A stretch of 64,000 bases of DNA from an uncultured Mycoplasmatota bacterium. GTDB lineage: Bacteria; Bacillota_I; Bacilli_A; Izemoplasmatales; Izemoplasmataceae. Each line of letters starts with the position of its first letter. Position 1 is the stretch's first letter. Positions 6,431-36,063 of the stretch are shown here, piece by piece. The notes under the pieces were generated by a model. It saw only the letters and a program-made list of their open reading frames with translations. It was not told where the DNA came from and ran no database searches. Both the position numbers and the translations under genes were made by a program. Location of the stretch: positions 248,001 to 312,000 of the forward strand of contig CAJXVW010000001.1 in assembly GCA_913062645.1 (NCBI GenBank), in the 5' to 3' direction.

Positions 6431-7456
6431 ATGAAAAAACTACTGATTCTCTTATTGGGAGTGATTCTCGTGGCATGCGAACCGCAAGAAGATCCAGAAC
6501 CCGAAGCAAACGAGTTTGTCAATCCGGTCTTTGAACCAGTGATGGCCGACCCGTCGATCATTCGTGCGGAAGACGGCTATTTCTATGCCTATGCGACGGA
6601 AGACTTCTGGGATTACGATGCCGGCGTACGTCTGGTACCGATCATTCGCTCGAAAGACTTGGTAAACTGGGAGTACGTTGGTGACGCCTTTGAAGAAAAA
6701 CCGACATGGGCTGGATTCAAGCATATCTGGGCTCCAGACATTCAATATTTCAACAACATGTATTACTTGTATTACTCGATGAGCGTTTGGGGCGATGAAA
6801 ACCCGGTCATTGGTGTCGCAACATCACTGACACCCGATGGTCCGTTCACCGACCAAGGCATGTTGTTCAGCAGCGATGAAATCGGCGTCGAGAACTCCAT
6901 CGATCCGTATGTCTTCATCGAAAACGACGGAACAAAATGGATGTTCTGGGGCAGTTTCCGCGGTATTTATGCAATTCAACTGTCGGACAACGGTCTCGAA
7001 ACCGTTGGCGAGAAACATCACATTGCCGGCAATGCATTTGAGGCCAGTTATGTGGTTCATAAAGATGGATTCTATTATTTGTTCTTGAGTACTGGTTCTT
7101 GTTGTGATGGTGCCAACTCGACGTACAGTGTCCGGATTCTTCGTAGCACCGAGCTTCTGGGACCCTACGTCGATCGAATCGGTCGAACCGGCTTTTCCAA
7201 CTCCGGATCCATTGTCATGGATCGGGGGGAACAATACGTCGGCGTGGGACACAACTCGATTGCCATGGACGACAACGGCGACTATTGGATCATCTATCAC
7301 GGCATCAACATCGACGATCCGTATCTGCCCAATGGGGCAACGCGTCGTCCGTTGATGATCGACAAGATTATTTGGGATTCCAACGGATGGCCGCAAGTCC
7401 GGAACTTCCGGCCCAGTGAATCGCCCACGGAAGCACCATATTTTGAGGAGGAATGA
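6431..7456 (+). CDS. Lipoprotein glycoside hydrolase, family GH43
   Basis: 341-residue extracellular lipoprotein; signal peptide ending in lipobox LVAC (Cys16). The five-bladed beta-propeller pattern of GH43 is clear: ADPSII (Asp40, catalytic base), NSIDPYVF (Asp158, pKa modulator) and AFEASYV (Glu204, general acid). Family members are arabinanases, arabinofuranosidases, beta-xylosidases or galactanases, and the exact substrate cannot be fixed here. Motifs such as HIWAPDIQYFNNMYYLYYS resemble the arabinan-active subfamilies. GGGTGATAAC before ATG 6431 serves as ribosome site. It ends two bases before the solute-binding-protein start, so released oligosaccharides would be captured directly by that importer. 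Confidence 0.9.
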   Translation: MKKLLILLLGVILVACEPQEDPEPEANEFVNPVFEPVMADPSIIRAEDGYFYAYATEDFWDYDAGVRLVPIIRSKDLVNWEYVGDAFEEKPTWAGFKHIWAPDIQYFNNMYYLYYSMSVWGDENPVIGVATSLTPDGPFTDQGMLFSSDEIGVENSIDPYVFIENDGTKWMFWGSFRGIYAIQLSDNGLETVGEKHHIAGNAFEASYVVHKDGFYYLFLSTGSCCDGANSTYSVRILRSTELLGPYVDRIGRTGFSNSGSIVMDRGEQYVGVGHNSIAMDDNGDYWIIYHGINIDDPYLPNGATRRPLMIDKIIWDSNGWPQVRNFRPSESPTEAPYFEEE

Positions 7457-7458
7457 AC

Positions 7459-8724
7459 ATGAAAAAGATTCTATTGATCGTTTTGACATTGTTCGCCGCG
7501 GTTGGTTTGACAGCATGTGGTGGCGGCGGCGACAACAACAACGATGACGATTATTTGGTTACCATAACGTTCTGGAATATCTTCACCGGACCCGACGGGG
7601 AGGAAATGATCAACCTCGTCAACGATTTCAATGCCGCCAACGAAGGTGTCTACCGTGTCAACACACAGACAATTCCGTCCAATGATTTTTATGAGAAACT
7701 CAATACGGTCGTACCGCAAGGACAAGGCCCGGACGTAGCTATCATGCATCTTGATCAACTGGCGCGCTACGCACAACTCGGTCTGTTGACATCATTCGAT
7801 GATCTGGCCAGCGATCTGGATCTCGATGAAACGAATTACATCGAAGCAGTCTGGGATGCCGGCATCTACGAGTCGAAGCGCTATGCCGTTCCCTTGGACG
7901 TACACCCCATAGGTCTGTATTACAACCAGGACATTCTGGATGCCTACGATGTGGAAGTTCCCACAACATTTGATGAACTGATTGCTGCGTGTGAGATTCT
8001 GAATGACGACACCATCGATCAGTGGTGTCTGCCGTTGTCCAACGTGTGGCCCTCACAACTGCTGTTCCAGGCGTCGCTCTATCAGCACGGCGGAATGGAT
8101 CTCGATGAAGACGGATTGTATCCCGCCTACAATACCCAAAACGGCTACGATGCGTTGAACGTGTTTCATGAGTTGATCTTCACGCATGGTGTCAGCCCCG
8201 TCAACACCACCGTCGATGAAGATTTGGCGCTCTTCCGTCAAGGCAAGGCCGCTTTCCACATCAACGGCATATGGATGTTGAACGGCATCATCGACTCCGG
8301 TATCAACTTCGGCACAGCATCGATTGCAACATTGTTCGGAGACACGCCGGCGGTCTGGGCAGGTTCGCATAACTTCGTCATGCCGCGTCCTGCCAAGGTC
8401 AATGAAGACAAACAAGAAGCCATTGTGGCATTCATCACATACGTTAGTGAAAACAGCCTGCGCTGGGCAAATGCCGGACAAATTCCGGCCAATCTCACCG
8501 TGCTGGACAGTGCGGAGTATCAAGCACTCCCCTATCACTCCACGTTCGTCGACATCGACGACATTATGTTCCCGAGCTTGTCACCGTACTTCCAGGATTC
8601 GTTCGAGCCGATTTTCTCGCGCGTCACCGATGCGATGAACGACCCCAACGCGGATATTCAGGCGCTGTTGGACGAAGCCGAACTGGAAGGAACGCAGCGT
8701 CTCAATGAAGCGCTCGGTAATTGA
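7459..8724 (+). CDS. Sugar ABC transporter substrate-binding lipoprotein (family 1)
   Basis: 421 residues with a lipoprotein signal peptide and lipobox LTAC followed by a Gly/Asn/Asp-rich linker, then a MalE/UgpB-type solute-binding fold starting VTITFWNIFTGPDGEEM. It captures oligosaccharides at the membrane surface and delivers them to the two permeases encoded next. Start 7459 is preferred over the in-frame ATG at 7453 because GAGGAGG (7445-7451) sits seven bases before 7459 but only one before 7453. Its 3' end overlaps the next permease by 20 bases, indicating translational coupling. Confidence 0.93.
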   Translation: MKKILLIVLTLFAAVGLTACGGGGDNNNDDDYLVTITFWNIFTGPDGEEMINLVNDFNAANEGVYRVNTQTIPSNDFYEKLNTVVPQGQGPDVAIMHLDQLARYAQLGLLTSFDDLASDLDLDETNYIEAVWDAGIYESKRYAVPLDVHPIGLYYNQDILDAYDVEVPTTFDELIAACEILNDDTIDQWCLPLSNVWPSQLLFQASLYQHGGMDLDEDGLYPAYNTQNGYDALNVFHELIFTHGVSPVNTTVDEDLALFRQGKAAFHINGIWMLNGIIDSGINFGTASIATLFGDTPAVWAGSHNFVMPRPAKVNEDKQEAIVAFITYVSENSLRWANAGQIPANLTVLDSAEYQALPYHSTFVDIDDIMFPSLSPYFQDSFEPIFSRVTDAMNDPNADIQALLDEAELEGTQRLNEALGN

Positions 8725-12278: not shown

Positions 12279-13307
12279 ATGGACCCAACATCATTTCAAA
12301 CGGCGTTGCTTGATTGGTATGATTCGTCAAAACGCATTTTGCCATGGCGCGACAACCCCAATCCATATCATGTATGGGTATCGGAGATCATGCTCCAGCA
12401 AACTCGTGTGGAAGCGGTGATTCCCTATTTTCATCGTTTCATCGCGGAACTGCCGACGATTGCCGATCTGGCTACAGTCGATGACGATAAACTGAACAAA
12501 CTGTGGGAAGGGCTTGGGTATTACTCCCGTGTTCGCAATCTCAAGAAGGCGGCCCAGCAAGTGATCCATGACTTCGATGGCGAGCTCCCCAGCAACCGCA
12601 CAGATTTGGAATCGCTCTCCGGCATCGGTCCGTATACCGCGGGGGCCATTCGCTCGATTGCCTTCAACCAGCAGGACACCGCCGTCGATGGCAATGTGCT
12701 CCGCGTGTTTGCCCGGTTGACAGCGAATCAAAACGACATCAAATCGCCTCCTGTCAAGCGCGAGATTCGCCGTTTGGTCGCATCGCTGTTGCCAGAGGAA
12801 CGTGTCGGTGATTTCAATCAAGCATTGATGGAAATCGGTGCGACCGTCTGTTTGCCCAACGGCAAACCGCTCTGCATGGTATGTCCGCTGAACTCGTTCT
12901 GCGAGGCATTCCAACAAGGATTAACCGACACCATACCCAAGAAACAGAAAAAGACCAAACGACGCATCGAAAAACGCACGGTCCTGTTGTTGGAACACAA
13001 TGGCAAGTTTGCCATTCGGCAACGCCCGGTGGACGGTTTGCTCGGTGGGCTCTATGAGTTTCCGAATGTTCTGGGTCATTTGACGAAAGCGGACGTGTTG
13101 AAACAATATCCGGATTCCACCATATCGAAGTTGCCCAAAGCCAAGCATGTGTTCTCTCATCTGGAGTGGCACATGATCGGCTTTCATGTCTTGTTGGACG
13201 AGCAGATTGAACAGTTTCCGTTCGTCTCCCCCGAAGAACTGTATGCAACCTACTCGGTACCCACAGCGTTCAAAACGTACAAGGAAGCATTGTTGAAGTT
13301 GAACTAG
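12279..13307 (+). CDS. mutY: A/G-specific adenine glycosylase
   Basis: Base-excision enzyme that removes adenine opposite 8-oxoguanine. 342 residues from ATG 12279, chosen for AAGGAGG at 12266-12272. The helix-hairpin-helix GPD domain contains VSEIMLQQTRVE (Glu36), LSGIGPYTAGAI and the catalytic Asp in AVDGNVLR (Asp137). Four Fe-S cysteines are at 191, 199, 202 and 208, giving C-x7-C-x2-C-x5-C, one residue longer in the first gap than the usual x6. A C-terminal Nudix-like 8-oxoG recognition domain follows from about residue 225. TACAAT at 12253-12258 is a likely -10. It heads a series of oxidative-damage genes (peroxidase, Nudix hydrolase). Confidence 0.95.
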   Translation: MDPTSFQTALLDWYDSSKRILPWRDNPNPYHVWVSEIMLQQTRVEAVIPYFHRFIAELPTIADLATVDDDKLNKLWEGLGYYSRVRNLKKAAQQVIHDFDGELPSNRTDLESLSGIGPYTAGAIRSIAFNQQDTAVDGNVLRVFARLTANQNDIKSPPVKREIRRLVASLLPEERVGDFNQALMEIGATVCLPNGKPLCMVCPLNSFCEAFQQGLTDTIPKKQKKTKRRIEKRTVLLLEHNGKFAIRQRPVDGLLGGLYEFPNVLGHLTKADVLKQYPDSTISKLPKAKHVFSHLEWHMIGFHVLLDEQIEQFPFVSPEELYATYSVPTAFKTYKEALLKLN

Positions 13308-13345
13308 CATTGGAACTCGAAATATCCAATGGGATTTGATATAAT
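13308..13345 (+). promoter_or_regulatory. Inverted repeat and -10 box before glutathione peroxidase
   Basis: CATTGGA (13308-13314) and TCCAATG (13325-13331) are perfect arms around ten bases, directly upstream of TATAAT (13340-13345). No T-run follows the hairpin, so it is more likely an operator covering the -35 region than a terminator. The regulator is unknown. Confidence 0.45.
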
Positions 13346-13368
13346 GGAGGCAGAAGGGAGTTGTTATA

Positions 13369-13842
13369 ATGGATTTTTACGACATTGAAGTGGAAACCGT
13401 AGCCGGATTGAAAACCACTCTCGAGGAACATCGCGGTGATGTGCTCTTGATTGTCAACATCGCCAGCAAATGCGGGTACACGCCGCAATTGCTGGGCCTT
13501 GAGAACCTGTGGAAGAAGTATCAGGATCGAAACTTTAAGGTGCTTGGATTTCCATGCAATCAGTTTTTGCGTCAGGCACCGGGTACCAACACTGAAATCA
13601 TGAATTTCTGTCAAAGCAACTATGGCGTCAGTTTTCCGATTTATGGCAAACTGAATGTCAAGGGACGCAACATCAGCGACTTGTACAAGTATCTTGTCAA
13701 CGAATCAAAGCAGATGCGTGGCAAAGCGGTAAAATGGAACTTTGAGAAATTTCTTCTGAATCGCAATGGCGTCGTGATCAAACGGTTTAAGTCAAAAGTG
13801 GAACCGAATGAAATCGAAGACGACATTGAACTCTTACTGTAG
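13369..13842 (+). CDS. Glutathione peroxidase-family thiol peroxidase
   Basis: 157 residues, usual length for bacterial BsaA/GPx. Reduces hydroperoxides in the cytoplasm, in bacteria usually with thioredoxin as donor. Visible active-site elements: peroxidatic Cys35 in SKCGYTPQ (cysteine, not selenocysteine), Gln69 in NQFLRQAPG, Trp123-Asn124 in KWNFEKF, and Cys81 in FCQSNYGV, where the resolving cysteine of the thioredoxin-dependent type is expected. The canonical FGxQEPG is changed to FLRQAPG. Start ATG 13369 has AAGGGAG upstream. Together with the next small membrane protein and the heliorhodopsin it forms a tightly spaced group. Confidence 0.93.
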   Translation: MDFYDIEVETVAGLKTTLEEHRGDVLLIVNIASKCGYTPQLLGLENLWKKYQDRNFKVLGFPCNQFLRQAPGTNTEIMNFCQSNYGVSFPIYGKLNVKGRNISDLYKYLVNESKQMRGKAVKWNFEKFLLNRNGVVIKRFKSKVEPNEIEDDIELLL

Positions 13843-13850
13843 GTGATGAC

Positions 13851-14174
13851 ATGACCAAACGACTGATCGTATCAACCATCACGGGAGCCATTCTCGGCGT
13901 GGTCTGCATTGTTGGCGCCAATCTCCGCTTCGGCGGTGATCTGGCCGTGTATTTCCTGTTCGCCTTTTGGTTCAATCGGCTCCTCATGGGGGTGCTGTTT
14001 GGCGTATTGCCACCACTCGAGGACTGGAAGTTGCTGGTCGGCCGTGGAATCGTCGTTGGGCTACTGGTCGGTTTCGCATTCTACAGTGCGACTGATTATT
14101 TTGACCACATGGGATTTGCGGTCAGTGCGGCATATGGTGTGATTCTGGAATTCGTCGCCAAAAAACTAGCATAA
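13851..14174 (+). CDS. Small membrane protein of unknown function
   Basis: 107 residues, start ATG 13851 with AGGTGATG eight bases after the peroxidase stop, so almost certainly co-transcribed with it. Three or four hydrophobic helices (about residues 6-26, 33-52, 61-80 and 86-102) are separated by short loops; PPLEDWK lies between the second and third. No recognisable catalytic motif. Its position between a peroxidase and a heliorhodopsin is its most informative property; a partner of either is possible but unproven. Confidence 0.75.
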   Translation: MTKRLIVSTITGAILGVVCIVGANLRFGGDLAVYFLFAFWFNRLLMGVLFGVLPPLEDWKLLVGRGIVVGLLVGFAFYSATDYFDHMGFAVSAAYGVILEFVAKKLA

Positions 14175-14177
14175 TCG

Positions 14178-14206
14178 TTGAGTATTTCTCGATATCAAAG
14201 TATAAT
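14178..14206 (+). promoter_or_regulatory. Heliorhodopsin promoter with imperfect inverted repeat
   Basis: TTGAGT (14178-14183), 17-base spacer, TATAAT (14201-14206). The spacer contains an imperfect inverted repeat TTGA(G)TAT...ATATCAA (14178-14198), placed where a repressor would compete with polymerase. The heliorhodopsin can therefore be transcribed independently of the peroxidase. Confidence 0.65.
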
Positions 14207-14243
14207 TAGTACACAAATGTTATAAATATTGAAGGGAGAACTC

Positions 14244-15041
14244 ATGGAAAAACAAGTATCGTTTCAAAGCTTAAAACGTTTCAACATCATCATGGGCGGC
14301 CTGCATCTGTTCCAAGGCCTGTTGATGATCATTCTCGGTCTCACCGTAACCGCATTCGGTGATTTCAAACTCACCATCACGCAGAATTTCTTGAACTTCG
14401 ATTTCACGACGGAGGAACTCGTGTCCGACAGCACCGAGCTGTTCGAAGTACCGTTCTTCGTACTGGTCGCATCGTTCCTGCTGATCTCGGCTCTCGCCCA
14501 CGCACTGATCAGCCTGCCGAAGAAAACCAACGACATCTACAACGCCGATCTCGAACAAGGCATCAACCGCTTCCGATGGTTTGAATATGCCCTCTCATCG
14601 AGCGTCATGATCGTGCTCATCTCGTATCTGTTCGGCATCTATGACATCGCTTCGCTGGTTCTGATCTTCATCGTCAACGCCGCTATGAACCTGTTCGGTC
14701 TCGACATGGAAATCATCAACTCCGGCAAAGAGAAGAAAAACGTCAACTGGGGTCCGTTTGTCTGGGGAACCATCGCCGGTCTCGCACCGTGGATCGCGAT
14801 CATCCTCTATCTCGGCGGCGCGCCCGCCGAAGTCAACGAAGCCACTCCGTGGTTCGTCTGGGCCATCGTCGGTACCTATTTCGTTGCCTTCAACAGTTTC
14901 CCGATCAACATGATCCTGCAGTATCTGGGCAAAGGCAAATTCGCCAACTACATGTATGGCGAACGCGGTTACATCGTGCTCAGCCTTGTCGCCAAGTCGA
15001 TCCTCGCCTGGCTTGTCCTCGTCGGCGCCCTCCAGCCCTGA
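14244..15041 (+). CDS. Heliorhodopsin
   Basis: 265-residue seven-helix retinal protein of the heliorhodopsin family, recognised by direct similarity to the prototype 48C12: RWFEYALSSSVMIVLI in helix 3 and GERGYIVLSLVAKSILAW in helix 7. Lys251 is the retinal Schiff-base lysine; Glu114 matches the 48C12 counterion Glu107; His21 and His86 match the paired internal histidines, and Ser247 the serine near the Schiff base. Heliorhodopsins sit inverted in the membrane (N-terminus inside), do not pump ions, and are thought to be sensory or regulatory light receptors. ATG 14244 is preferred (GAAGGGA upstream). No retinal-synthesis gene is seen in the window, so the chromophore source is unknown. Terminated separately downstream. 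Confidence 0.97.
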   Translation: MEKQVSFQSLKRFNIIMGGLHLFQGLLMIILGLTVTAFGDFKLTITQNFLNFDFTTEELVSDSTELFEVPFFVLVASFLLISALAHALISLPKKTNDIYNADLEQGINRFRWFEYALSSSVMIVLISYLFGIYDIASLVLIFIVNAAMNLFGLDMEIINSGKEKKNVNWGPFVWGTIAGLAPWIAIILYLGGAPAEVNEATPWFVWAIVGTYFVAFNSFPINMILQYLGKGKFANYMYGERGYIVLSLVAKSILAWLVLVGALQP

Positions 15042-15060
15042 TCCGAAGCCAACCAACACA

Positions 15061-15090
15061 AAAACGAATTCCTGCGAATTCGTTTTTTCT
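15061..15090 (+). terminator. Terminator after heliorhodopsin
   Basis: Perfect 11-base arms AAAACGAATTC and GAATTCGTTTT (15061-15071, 15076-15086) with a CTGC loop and T-run. TATAAT at 15097-15102 follows, giving the next gene its own start. Confidence 0.92.
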
Positions 15091-15120
15091 TTGTGCTATA
15101 ATGGAAGAGGAGGTGGACCG

Positions 15121-15888
15121 ATGAAAGTCATCTTGTTCAAGATTGCCGTGGTGGTGGTCTACACTGGTGTGTTGCTTGTCAATTTTCTTGCCAATTATTT
15201 GCCGTTCAACAACCGTTCGACCGGTGACATCAGCGATTCTTACGCGTCCTATTTCACTCCGTCGGGATTCACGTTCTCGATCTGGGGTGTGATCTACATC
15301 ATACTTGGGGCGTTCGTGATCCAGGTGCTTACCCGCGATCCGGCGTGGTTCGATGGGGAGTATGTGACATCGTTGTTGTTGTGGTTTGCCGTGTCATCGC
15401 TGTTCAACATGCTGTGGCTTGTCACTTGGCATTATGACTGGATCGGCTGGAGCGTCGTCGTGATGCTCGGGCTGCTTGTGAGTCTCATTTTTGCCTATCT
15501 GTCAATCCCCACGACGGAGCTGTTGATCAAAGCCGCCTTCAGTCTCTACCTCGGTTGGATCAGCGTAGCAACGATTGCGAACGTGACGATCCTGCTTGTG
15601 AAACTGGACTGGCCGTTCTTCCTCAACCAGGCCACGCTCTGGTTCGTCATCGTGTTGTTGGTTGGCGTAGTGCTGGTCGGGACAGTACTGTTTGTCCGCC
15701 ATGACGTGCTGTATGGGGTCGTCTTCGTCTGGGCGTATTTTGGAATTCTGATGAAGCATCTCAACAAGGAACTCATGTCATTCGATGCTCGGGGCCCCGT
15801 CATGTACAACGTGGCGATGCTTGGGGTGATCGCGATTCTGGTTCTCGTCACGCTGTATCAAAACGGCTATCAACTCTACCGAGGATGA
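15121..15888 (+). CDS. TspO/MBR-related tryptophan-rich membrane protein
   Basis: 255 residues, start ATG 15121 after GAGGAGG. The N-terminal third carries the pattern of the larger TspO/MBR-related Firmicutes family: NRSTGDISDSYASYFTPSG followed by FSIWGVIYI, then aromatic-rich helices (about eight in all). TspO proteins bind tetrapyrroles and are linked to light, oxygen and stress responses in bacteria; the function of the longer version is less certain. Its position right behind a heliorhodopsin is suggestive of a shared light or oxidative-stress role (inference). The stop overlaps the next gene region. Confidence 0.8.
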   Translation: MKVILFKIAVVVVYTGVLLVNFLANYLPFNNRSTGDISDSYASYFTPSGFTFSIWGVIYIILGAFVIQVLTRDPAWFDGEYVTSLLLWFAVSSLFNMLWLVTWHYDWIGWSVVVMLGLLVSLIFAYLSIPTTELLIKAAFSLYLGWISVATIANVTILLVKLDWPFFLNQATLWFVIVLLVGVVLVGTVLFVRHDVLYGVVFVWAYFGILMKHLNKELMSFDARGPVMYNVAMLGVIAILVLVTLYQNGYQLYRG

Positions 15889-15893
15889 TCCCG

Positions 15894-16307
15894 ATGACGA
15901 CGTACAATTTGATCATGGTACTGGATAAAACGGAAACGAACATGCTGATGTGCCTGCGCGCCAAGGATCCCTACGAAGGCAAGTACAATCTTGTCGGAGG
16001 TCGCGTCGAAGACGGCGAAACACTGATGGAATCCGCTTACCGGGAACTGGTGGAAGAAACCGGCATCACCCAAGATGACATCACCCTCCACCGGTTCATG
16101 AACTTCACCTGGTATCCGGTCGACATGAAGATGAAAGTGTTCGTCGGACGGTTGAATCAAGACGTCGAACTGACCGAGGAAATCCACACTTTGCACTGGA
16201 TCAGTCTCAATGAGAACTTCTTCGACACCAACCGATTCGCCGGCGAGGGCAACATCGGACACATGGTTCACATCTATCGACAAACGAGGAGGTATTTCTA
16301 TGACTGA
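15894..16307 (+). CDS. Nudix hydrolase, MutT-like
   Basis: 137 residues. The Nudix box GRVEDGETLMESAYRELVEE plus TGI is intact, so it is predicted to hydrolyse a nucleoside diphosphate linked to another group; oxidised dNTP sanitation would fit the mutY/peroxidase context but specificity is not readable. ATG 15894 is preferred to ATG 15885 because GAGG (15881-15884) is then nine bases upstream. Coupled to the TspO-like gene in front and overlapping the following gene by eight bases. Confidence 0.85.
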   Translation: MTTYNLIMVLDKTETNMLMCLRAKDPYEGKYNLVGGRVEDGETLMESAYRELVEETGITQDDITLHRFMNFTWYPVDMKMKVFVGRLNQDVELTEEIHTLHWISLNENFFDTNRFAGEGNIGHMVHIYRQTRRYFYD

Positions 16308-16887
16308 CACGGATGTGTTCTGGCATTGGTTTGCCGAACAGGAAGCCTACATCCATCAGGAACTCGAACAACATCCCGACGCCATCGCCGAGGCGATCGC
16401 GACGAAGTTGAAGACGATTCATCCCGATCTTGTGTTTGACATTCCATTTGAACTGGAGAACGGAAAACGCCAGCTGATTCTGTCCGCCGATGGCGATGCG
16501 TCGCTGTTTGATCTCGTGTTTTCACTGGTTGACGCCGCGCCGGATCTGCCGAACTGGAACATCGTCGCACTTCGTCCCCGCACCAATCAGGCCGATCAGG
16601 CCATCGATTTGGCCGGTTTGTATCTCGAATACGAAGACATCTTTTTTCGCATCACGAATGATGATCTTCCGCTCGAACTGGAGATCTACATCCGCGGTTA
16701 TGACAACGAAGACAACCGCTACGTGCATGGCTTCTTCTTGCTGTTGGATACGTTGCTCGGCGAGTACGACGCCGTGACCTACACGGAAACCGTCGCGATT
16801 CATCCCTATGATGATGAGATCGAGGACTTGTCGCGATTCATCACGCTCCGGGACATCTTTGATGAACGCAAACAAAAAAAGAACTAA
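16300..16887 (+). CDS. Conserved hypothetical acidic protein
   Basis: 195 residues from ATG 16300 with GAGGAGG upstream, overlapping the Nudix gene by eight bases (translational coupling). Soluble, acidic, aromatic-rich at the N-terminus (FWHWFAEQEAYIHQEL). The central pattern LILSADGDASLFDLVFSLVD and a later LPNWNIVALRPR look like a conserved small-domain family seen in many bacteria without assigned function. No catalytic residues recognised. Last gene before a terminator shared with the opposite strand. Confidence 0.7.
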   Translation: MTDTDVFWHWFAEQEAYIHQELEQHPDAIAEAIATKLKTIHPDLVFDIPFELENGKRQLILSADGDASLFDLVFSLVDAAPDLPNWNIVALRPRTNQADQAIDLAGLYLEYEDIFFRITNDDLPLELEIYIRGYDNEDNRYVHGFFLLLDTLLGEYDAVTYTETVAIHPYDDEIEDLSRFITLRDIFDERKQKKN

Positions 16888-34778: not shown

Positions 34779-34841
34779 TAGGGAATGATGTTCTCCCTTA
34801 GTATTCGATACTAAAACCGCGAAAGCTGATGACGTCTGCCA
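34779..34841 (+). promoter_or_regulatory. Fluoride riboswitch (crcB motif)
   Basis: The core matches the fluoride aptamer: GGGAATGATGTTCTCCC (stem GGGA/TCCC) and later AACCGC...GCTGATGACGTCTGCC. The loop GATGTT (34785-34790) can pair with GACGTC (34831-34836) using two G-U pairs, forming the characteristic pseudoknot. A private 7-bp hairpin TTAGTAT-TCG-ATACTAA occupies the variable region. Fluoride would stabilise the aptamer, prevent the overlapping terminator and switch on the transporter gene. Confidence 0.88.
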
Positions 34842-34866
34842 CTTGGGTGGAGTCTCGGCTTTTTTC
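34824..34866 (+). terminator. Fluoride-controlled terminator
   Basis: AGC...GAC (34824-34833), CCAC/GTGG and GTC...GGCT fold into one bulged stem followed by six Ts. The 5' arm overlaps the pseudoknot strand of the aptamer, so folding is mutually exclusive. Confidence 0.7.
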
Positions 34867-34884
34867 ATACAAGGAGGAATGCAC

Positions 34885-36063
34885 ATGCTGCTCAGTCTAG
34901 CTCTCATATTCACGATCGGACTCATTTTGGGCGAACTGTTCGTCAAACTCAAACTGCCAGGATTTTTGGGGATGATCCTGACGGGTTTGTTGCTTGGACC
35001 TTACGCATTGGATTTGATCAGTGTCGACATCTTGAACATCAGCGCCGATCTCAGGACGATCGCCTTGGTTGTGATCCTGTTACGGGCGGGGTTGTCACTT
35101 GACATCGAGGACTTGAAGCAAATCGGCCGGCCGGCGATACTGATGGCATTCATTCCTGCCACCTTGGAACTGGCCGCGGTGATTCTGCTCGCTCCGTTGC
35201 TGTTTGACATCGGGTATTTTGAAGCGGCGATTCTCGGTAGCGTGCTTGCCGCTGTGTCCCCTGCTGTCGTCGTTCCCAAGATGATCCGACTGATGGAAGA
35301 AGGGTATGGCAAGGCCAAACGAATCCCCCATCTGATCATGGCTTCAGCGAGCGTCGATGACATTTTTGTGATCGTCATTTTCACCTCGTTGATCAGCATG
35401 TATCAGAGTGGTGATCTTGCCTTGGGCTCGTTCCTGCTGGTTCCGCTTGCCGTATTGATGGGCATTCTCGCCGGGATTCTCATCGGATTGTTGTTGTCGT
35501 GGTTCTTCCGTGTCTTCCGCGTGCGCGATACGATCAAGGTGATGATTTTACTTGCCGTGTCGTTGTTTGTCATCGTCGGTGAACCACGTGTCAATGATGT
35601 CCTTCCGTTCTCGGCGTTGCTCGCCGTGATGGTCATCGGCATCACGTTCCTGAATCGTTCGGAAGAACGCGCGCTCCGTTTGCGGGAGAAGTTTTCCCGT
35701 GTCTGGGTGTTTGCCGAGTTGGTGTTGTTTGTACTTGTCGGGGCCGCCGTCGACGTTCATGTCGCATTGGCGGCGGGACCGTTGGCGCTCTTGTTGCTTG
35801 CGGTCGCCTTGACGTTCCGCTTCGGTGGTGTCCAGCTCTGTTTGATTGGAACCAATCTGGAATCCAATGAACGGTTGTTCGCGGGGCTTTCGTATCTTCC
35901 CAAAGCTACCGTTCAAGCTGCCATTGGCGCCATTCCGTTGACGCTCGGTGTTCCTGGCGGCGATCTGATTCTGGCGCTTGCGGTATTCAGCATTCTCGTC
36001 ACCGCACCACTAGGAGCAATCGGCATTGATGTGACGCATACAAGATTTTTAGAAAAAGGATGA
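34885..36063 (+). CDS. Cation:proton antiporter (CPA family), fluoride-induced
   Basis: 392 residues, about 12 hydrophobic helices. KLPGFLGMILTGLLLGPYAL near the start and SVLAAVSPAVVVPKMI followed by ASVDDIFVIVIF are typical of CPA1/CPA2 exchangers; the Asp-Asp pair in SVDD takes the place of the ion-binding acidic residues. CPA-type antiporters are one of the gene classes known to stand behind fluoride riboswitches, so a role in fluoride resistance or coupled pH/Na+ homeostasis is likely. ATG 34885 is chosen because AAGGAGG (34871-34877) is seven bases upstream; ATG 34879 would be too close. Confidence 0.88.
   Translation: MLLSLALIFTIGLILGELFVKLKLPGFLGMILTGLLLGPYALDLISVDILNISADLRTIALVVILLRAGLSLDIEDLKQIGRPAILMAFIPATLELAAVILLAPLLFDIGYFEAAILGSVLAAVSPAVVVPKMIRLMEEGYGKAKRIPHLIMASASVDDIFVIVIFTSLISMYQSGDLALGSFLLVPLAVLMGILAGILIGLLLSWFFRVFRVRDTIKVMILLAVSLFVIVGEPRVNDVLPFSALLAVMVIGITFLNRSEERALRLREKFSRVWVFAELVLFVLVGAAVDVHVALAAGPLALLLLAVALTFRFGGVQLCLIGTNLESNERLFAGLSYLPKATVQAAIGAIPLTLGVPGGDLILALAVFSILVTAPLGAIGIDVTHTRFLEKG

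Follow-up and report, generated by a model that had tools for sequence, protein, structure and literature searches.

Heliorhodopsin beside a small membrane protein of the Izemoplasmatales: a candidate partner and its neighbourhood

Does a heliorhodopsin (HeR) act together with the genes that surround it and, if so, with which? The question is raised by a stretch of 64,000 nt (hereafter the window; G000:C1:248001-312000; 51% GC) of a 1.99-Mb two-contig genome of the Izemoplasmatales, wall-less, sediment-dwelling bacteria. Within it, HeR stands among genes for MutY, a glutathione peroxidase (GPx), a small membrane protein here termed smTM, a TspO-like protein and a Nudix hydrolase. A sequence-only reading of this locus had proposed that HeR reports light to a photo-oxidative defence module made up of its neighbours. 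The genes themselves, the intact residues of HeR, synteny, recurrence counts and genome-level co-occurrence were observed directly and form the basis of the answer given here. The explanation that we favour, plausible yet short of probable, is that HeR is a unit of its own beside smTM in an older mutY-smTM-Nudix block which GPx and the TspO-like gene would also have entered, and that HeR acts through contact with smTM.

Genome sets of 392 (phylum), 150 (relatives) and 147 members, which overlap one another, were utilized together with the comparison genomes zrk13 (Xianfuyuplasma coldseepsis, G002) of the same genus and zrk29 (Hujiaoplasma nucleasis, G052) of the same order. To measure recurrence, 94 HeR sequences from relatives and named genomes were taken, in roughly 90 neighbourhoods, and the gene families lying no more than 5 kb from them were counted; all counts out of 94 include related genomes and truncated contigs. 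HeR is frequent in the relatives, where it scored above the curated cut-off in 64 of 150, and is present in 29 of the 392 phylum genomes.

Heliorhodopsin and the small membrane protein

The HeR gene (14244..15041, + strand, ATG at 14244) encodes a 265-aa protein with a full-length match to the family (PF18761, 1.6e-90, 303.2 bits at a cut-off of 26.7; NF038020, 280.5 bits at a cut-off of 100). Alignment to 48C12 HeR (PDB 6SU3) showed that the retinal-lysine motif SxxxK is intact in helix 7 (SLVAK, K251) and that E114 aligns with the Schiff-base counterion glutamate. These features and a monoderm host are shared with 48C12 HeR and TaHeR (PDB 6IS6), whereas the window HeR groups with those of zrk13, G023 and genus g17 in a small clade within the Izemoplasmatales. 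An inverted seven-helix topology, retinal binding and a slow photocycle would be expected from its family. Its sister in the HeR tree is the zrk13 HeR at 87% identity. A second, divergent HeR is found on the other contig of the same genome (L033, G000:C2:126148-126888); it joins other Izemoplasmataceae paralogues in a long-branch clade and has none of the window HeR's neighbours around it. HeRs with in-frame stops or split frames were also seen in relatives (L100 in G113, L095 in G084, G214 and G276), which suggests repeated decay of HeR.

Immediately upstream lies smTM (13851..14174, + strand), a protein of 107 aa with a confident four-helix model (AF2 pLDDT 94.2). The earlier reading had recorded its presence and passed over it, although smTM is a recurrent neighbour found at 6 of the 94 HeR loci. 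No relatives were detected in Pfam, NCBIfam or PDB sequences; Pfam matches were weak and scattered, the best being DUF1097 at 1e-4, with one of ten members matching at all. A fold search returned no convincing match, and a relationship to complex I NDUFA11/TIM22-like proteins was rejected, as such chains appeared at Z 4-6 among unrelated rows and were taken to reflect a common arrangement. In viral contigs no smTM was found. The alignment of 28 family members contains 18 invariant residues, including a Cys, a Trp, an Asn and an Arg.

Five Izemoplasmataceae loci (the window, G023, G019, G033 and G020) have smTM directly ahead of HeR and in the same orientation, and in an Anaerolineaceae genome smTM lies 348 bp upstream of HeR. 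L110, an Anaerolineaceae locus, carries smTM twice (2-187 and 7323-7652, some 7 kb from each other), with one copy upstream of HeR. A tight arrangement is seen in genus g17 (L066), where MarR (1230-1718), smTM (1708-2058), HeR (2055-2861) and GPx (from 2874) follow one another with overlaps of 11 bp between MarR and smTM and 4 bp between smTM and HeR and a gap of 12 bp between HeR and GPx. The smTM-paired HeRs occupy three separate places in the HeR tree, including the Chloroflexota. In fact, the smTMs of G020 and the Anaerolineaceae are united in a single clade (99/100) that has no counterpart among their HeRs, so that the pairing arose more than once and was not simply co-inherited. Taken over all genomes that carry both genes, about 0.004 cases of smTM at most 400 bp ahead of HeR would be expected by chance. 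The test was chosen post hoc, and this value should be given less weight in view of the many other families open to selection.

The association extends to whole genomes. All 13 of the 392 phylum genomes that carry smTM also carry HeR, and smTM occurs in HeR-bearing Anaerolineaceae, Clostridiaceae and Halolactibacillus miurensis genomes as well. Genomes of genera g1 and g7 keep or lose smTM and HeR jointly: three have both, eight have neither and one has a fragment of smTM only (hypergeometric 4/220 = 0.018). In the Hujiaoplasma group smTM adjoins a tocopherol-cyclase-like gene (PF14249) in L130, L133, L135 and L142, with overlap in three of the four, and since this gene stands beside HeR in other families, it provides a further, indirect tie. 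From these arrangements we read smTM as a probable partner of HeR.

In the favoured explanation HeR would bind retinal taken up from outside, would change shape in light and would act by contact with a membrane partner, for which smTM is the best candidate. Contact partners of HeR have been published, namely glutamine synthetase, photolyase and an ABC transporter (PMC9529153, PMC9769723, PMC11109279). The pair of AbHeR and glutamine synthetase (PMC9529153) sets a precedent for direct contact between HeR and the product of an adjacent gene; that partner is a soluble enzyme, whereas smTM is a membrane protein. In this small clade, peroxide defence through the HeR-linked GPx would be one of the outputs. 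Synteny marks mutY and Nudix as bystanders, and no linkage was seen for the TspO-like gene. A stronger version, in which smTM is a dedicated HeR partner, either taking over the light signal from HeR or supplying the chromophore to it, and is kept in HeR-bearing Bacillota and Chloroflexota even when the genes are not adjacent, seems to us doubtful and on balance unlikely.

The surrounding genes and the older block

The orthologous locus of zrk13 reads mutY-smTM-Nudix-unknown-<YgaP-RlmL-L25-<PPK and is collinear with the window, without GPx, HeR and TspO. Judged by this gene order, the three genes mutY, smTM and Nudix belong to an older block. Either GPx came to stand between the first two of them and HeR with TspO between the last two, or zrk13 has lost GPx, HeR and TspO. 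Because the block exists there without HeR, mutY and Nudix are independent of HeR and were ruled out as HeR-linked genes. The mutY gene of the window (12279..13307, + strand) encodes an A/G-specific adenine glycosylase (TIGR01084, 333.9 bits at a cut-off of 286.5), and the mutY-smTM order is also found in G023. GPx and mutY lie at most about 0.7 kb apart in G008 (L197, G008:C46), away from the HeR of that genome, and this pairing is thus independent of HeR.

Recurrence of the neighbours, which the sequence-only reading had named as its own check, was low. Within 5 kb of the other HeRs among the 94, the TspO-like gene was found at none, mutY at one and GPx at two, both in genus g17, giving totals with the window of 1, 2 and 3. 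A narrower link between HeR and GPx survives from the proposed module, through the g17 run and the grouping of the GPx proteins, while mutY, Nudix and the TspO-like gene drop out on zrk13 synteny and recurrence. The statement that all five enzymes or sensors have to do with light, tetrapyrroles or oxidised nucleotides goes further than the families indicate. As a five-gene photo-oxidative unit the module is not supported as stated and would mostly represent synteny and one-off arrivals.

GPx (13369..13842, + strand) is a Cys-type member of the glutathione-peroxidase family (PF00255, 118.6 bits, 1.2e-34) with the motifs SKCGYTP, which holds the catalytic Cys, FPCNQF and WNFEKF; it may use glutathione or thioredoxin. 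It groups with two HeR-linked g17 GPx proteins (SH-aLRT 91 in a 43-protein tree; 78/94.7 in the careful tree), and the other GPx of the genome pairs weakly with a zrk13 GPx (81/48). This would fit, with moderate support, a lineage of HeR-linked GPx that predates the split between g1 and g17. HeR beside GSHPx or glutaredoxin, with a role in light-induced oxidative stress, has been proposed before (Bulzu et al. 2021, PMC8612252). The window shares with that report a GSHPx-family gene near HeR and the same proposed output, and differs in that smTM separates GPx from HeR and HeR has its own predicted promoter, operon-like spacing being seen in g17 only. The spacing used there was the same strand and less than 10 bp between GSHPx and HeR; the window GPx lies one gene off and the gap in G033 is 12 bp. 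The main text of that paper names no TspO, mutY, Nudix or small membrane protein. The HeR-GPx link stands for a small clade, and its kind has been published before.

The TspO-like gene (15121..15888, + strand) keeps its family name by a match to PF03073 (29.2 bits, gathering score 24), yet its product is divergent and with 255 aa longer than the roughly 150 aa of the family. TSPO chains top the fold list for its model (pLDDT 76), weakly, at a target TM-score of at most 0.74 and E above 1, and tetrapyrrole binding would be expected from its family. Relatives were sought by protein query, the PF03073 search having missed the window's own gene, and were found in 19 of 90 other genomes. None lies within 5 kb of HeR, the nearest being about 9 kb away in G014, and TspO was ruled out as HeR-linked on this zero recurrence. 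The Nudix gene (15885..16307, + strand) belongs to the Nudix superfamily as had been described (PF00293, 8.9e-15), but not to MutT, scoring 32.5 bits against a cut-off of 97.9 in the curated model.

The six genes are contiguous on the + strand, as the earlier reading had it. The run does not end at Nudix, however, but extends to a gene for a protein of unknown function (16294..16887, + strand) which overlaps Nudix, matches no Pfam family and has an ortholog, L127_6, common to zrk13. GPx and smTM are 8 bp apart, and the TspO-like, Nudix and unknown genes overlap in series. Promoter-like sites on the + strand, both consensus matches only, precede GPx (13317..13345, TCGAAA-17-TATAAT) and HeR (14178..14206, TTGAGT-17-TATAAT, 10/12 matches), and a sequence pattern like an intrinsic terminator, with a 12-bp stem and a T-run, follows HeR (15060..15087, + strand). 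With this predicted promoter and terminator HeR looks like a transcription unit of its own, and from the consensus matches we read the layout as mutY, GPx-smTM, HeR alone and TspO-Nudix-unknown. A single operon was rejected on the predicted signals that flank HeR, in agreement with the previous description of a neighbourhood with several promoters.

Other recurrent neighbours of heliorhodopsin

More frequent neighbours of the 94 HeRs were RNA m5U methyltransferase (25), photolyase (16), Na+/H+ exchanger (13), DegV/FakA-like (12), DUF1295 (10), tocopherol-cyclase-like (8), DUF554 (8), K+ channel (8) and DUF2177 (7). A recurrent 450-aa neighbour was wrongly taken for photolyase; it is the RNA m5U methyltransferase, and photolyase forms a separate cluster. 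In the window's family HeR is usually set between RNA methyltransferases with the exchanger downstream, not among oxidative genes. The exchanger lies directly 3' of HeR (94-157 bp) in ten Izemoplasmataceae loci (L037, L047, L050, L052, L062, L063, L065, L069, L070 and L072), and a homologue is found inside the window (34789-36060).

Photolyase is the recurrent light-damage gene outside the window's family, in line with the HeR-photolyase partnership of Trichococcus (PMC9769723) and with the HeR operon groups that include DUF2177 (PMC11109279). As in those systems, photolyase, DUF2177 and DUF1295 stand beside HeR in relatives, and a compact DUF1295-DUF2177-HeR-photolyase run is seen in L099 (7715-11015), where DUF2177 and HeR overlap by 4 bp. 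The window differs, as neither a photolyase nor a DUF2177 gene was found in its 64 kb. The tocopherol-cyclase-like gene adjoins HeR in seven loci (L083, L102, L103, L146, L148, L149 and L152); no paper on tocopherol cyclase together with HeR was found in the literature searched.

Competing explanations

Several observations weigh against a partnership of HeR with smTM and GPx. Both smTM and HeR occur in related families only, which means that common descent inflates the count of 13 out of 13, and across Izemoplasmataceae and Hujiaoplasmataceae their association is not significant (Fisher p 0.13). The majority of HeR genomes in the two best-sampled families are without smTM, and the majority of smTM genes are not adjacent to HeR. 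In six relatives with smTM no HeR was found; these are mostly incomplete metagenome-assembled genomes, but G065 is 90% complete. The smTM of zrk13 remains with mutY and Nudix while its HeR is 73 kb distant, and in the window the predicted promoter and terminator of HeR give no indication of co-transcription with smTM. The HeR-linked GPx of G019 (L051:9850-10322) carries a one-base frameshift at the catalytic Cys motif, a pseudogene or a sequencing error in a nearly complete genome. Finally, no Blh/BCD-type retinal gene (PF15461) scored above cut-off in the 150 relatives, in a search limited to this family, and HeR would consequently need external retinal or some route not yet known. There is a report of rhodopsin function in the absence of known retinal genes (PMC7734400). 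As several relatives are deep-sea isolates, a natural light signal is itself putative.

Much of this would also be expected if HeR were a mobile single-gene unit beside housekeeping genes with neighbours functionally untied to it, an explanation that we regard as quite possible, if less than convincing. The HeR neighbourhood varies within one genus, HeR of zrk13 being flanked by MFS-type and beta-lactamase-like genes, and HeR of the window has its own signals. GPx was near HeR at 3 of the 94 loci; a rough estimate by chance gives about 0.5 within 5 kb, which is not much lower, and a single ancestral event may lie behind the three. G008 keeps mutY and GPx close together without HeR. Neutrality does not readily accommodate three HeR lineages with smTM ahead of HeR, the genome-level co-occurrence or the overlapping genes of the g17 run. 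A HeR that reports light to a mutY, GPx, TspO-like and Nudix module handling photo-oxidative damage is compatible with the protein families and with the oxidative-stress role proposed in PMC8612252, and photolyase at 16 of 94 loci makes light-damage repair a theme in relatives. It is nevertheless improbable given the recurrence of TspO and mutY, the zrk13 block without HeR and the failure of Nudix in the MutT model. Very improbable in our estimate is a prenyl-lipid or chromophore-handling set in which smTM and the tocopherol-cyclase-like protein would help in the supply or processing of retinal or of a protective isoprenoid. Such a set, suggested by gene neighbourhoods, would account for HeR without known retinal synthesis and for the tocopherol-cyclase-like gene beside both HeR and smTM, but that gene was not found in the window.

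An attractive five-gene module round a photoreceptor thus dissolved on comparison with a genome of the same genus. The function of HeR is a standing question, and neighbourhood surveys based on domain names are blind to a partner that has no Pfam family. The new point of this analysis is smTM, a concrete, small and testable candidate for such a partner, and both genes are present in cultured organisms, namely zrk13, zrk29 and Halolactibacillus miurensis.

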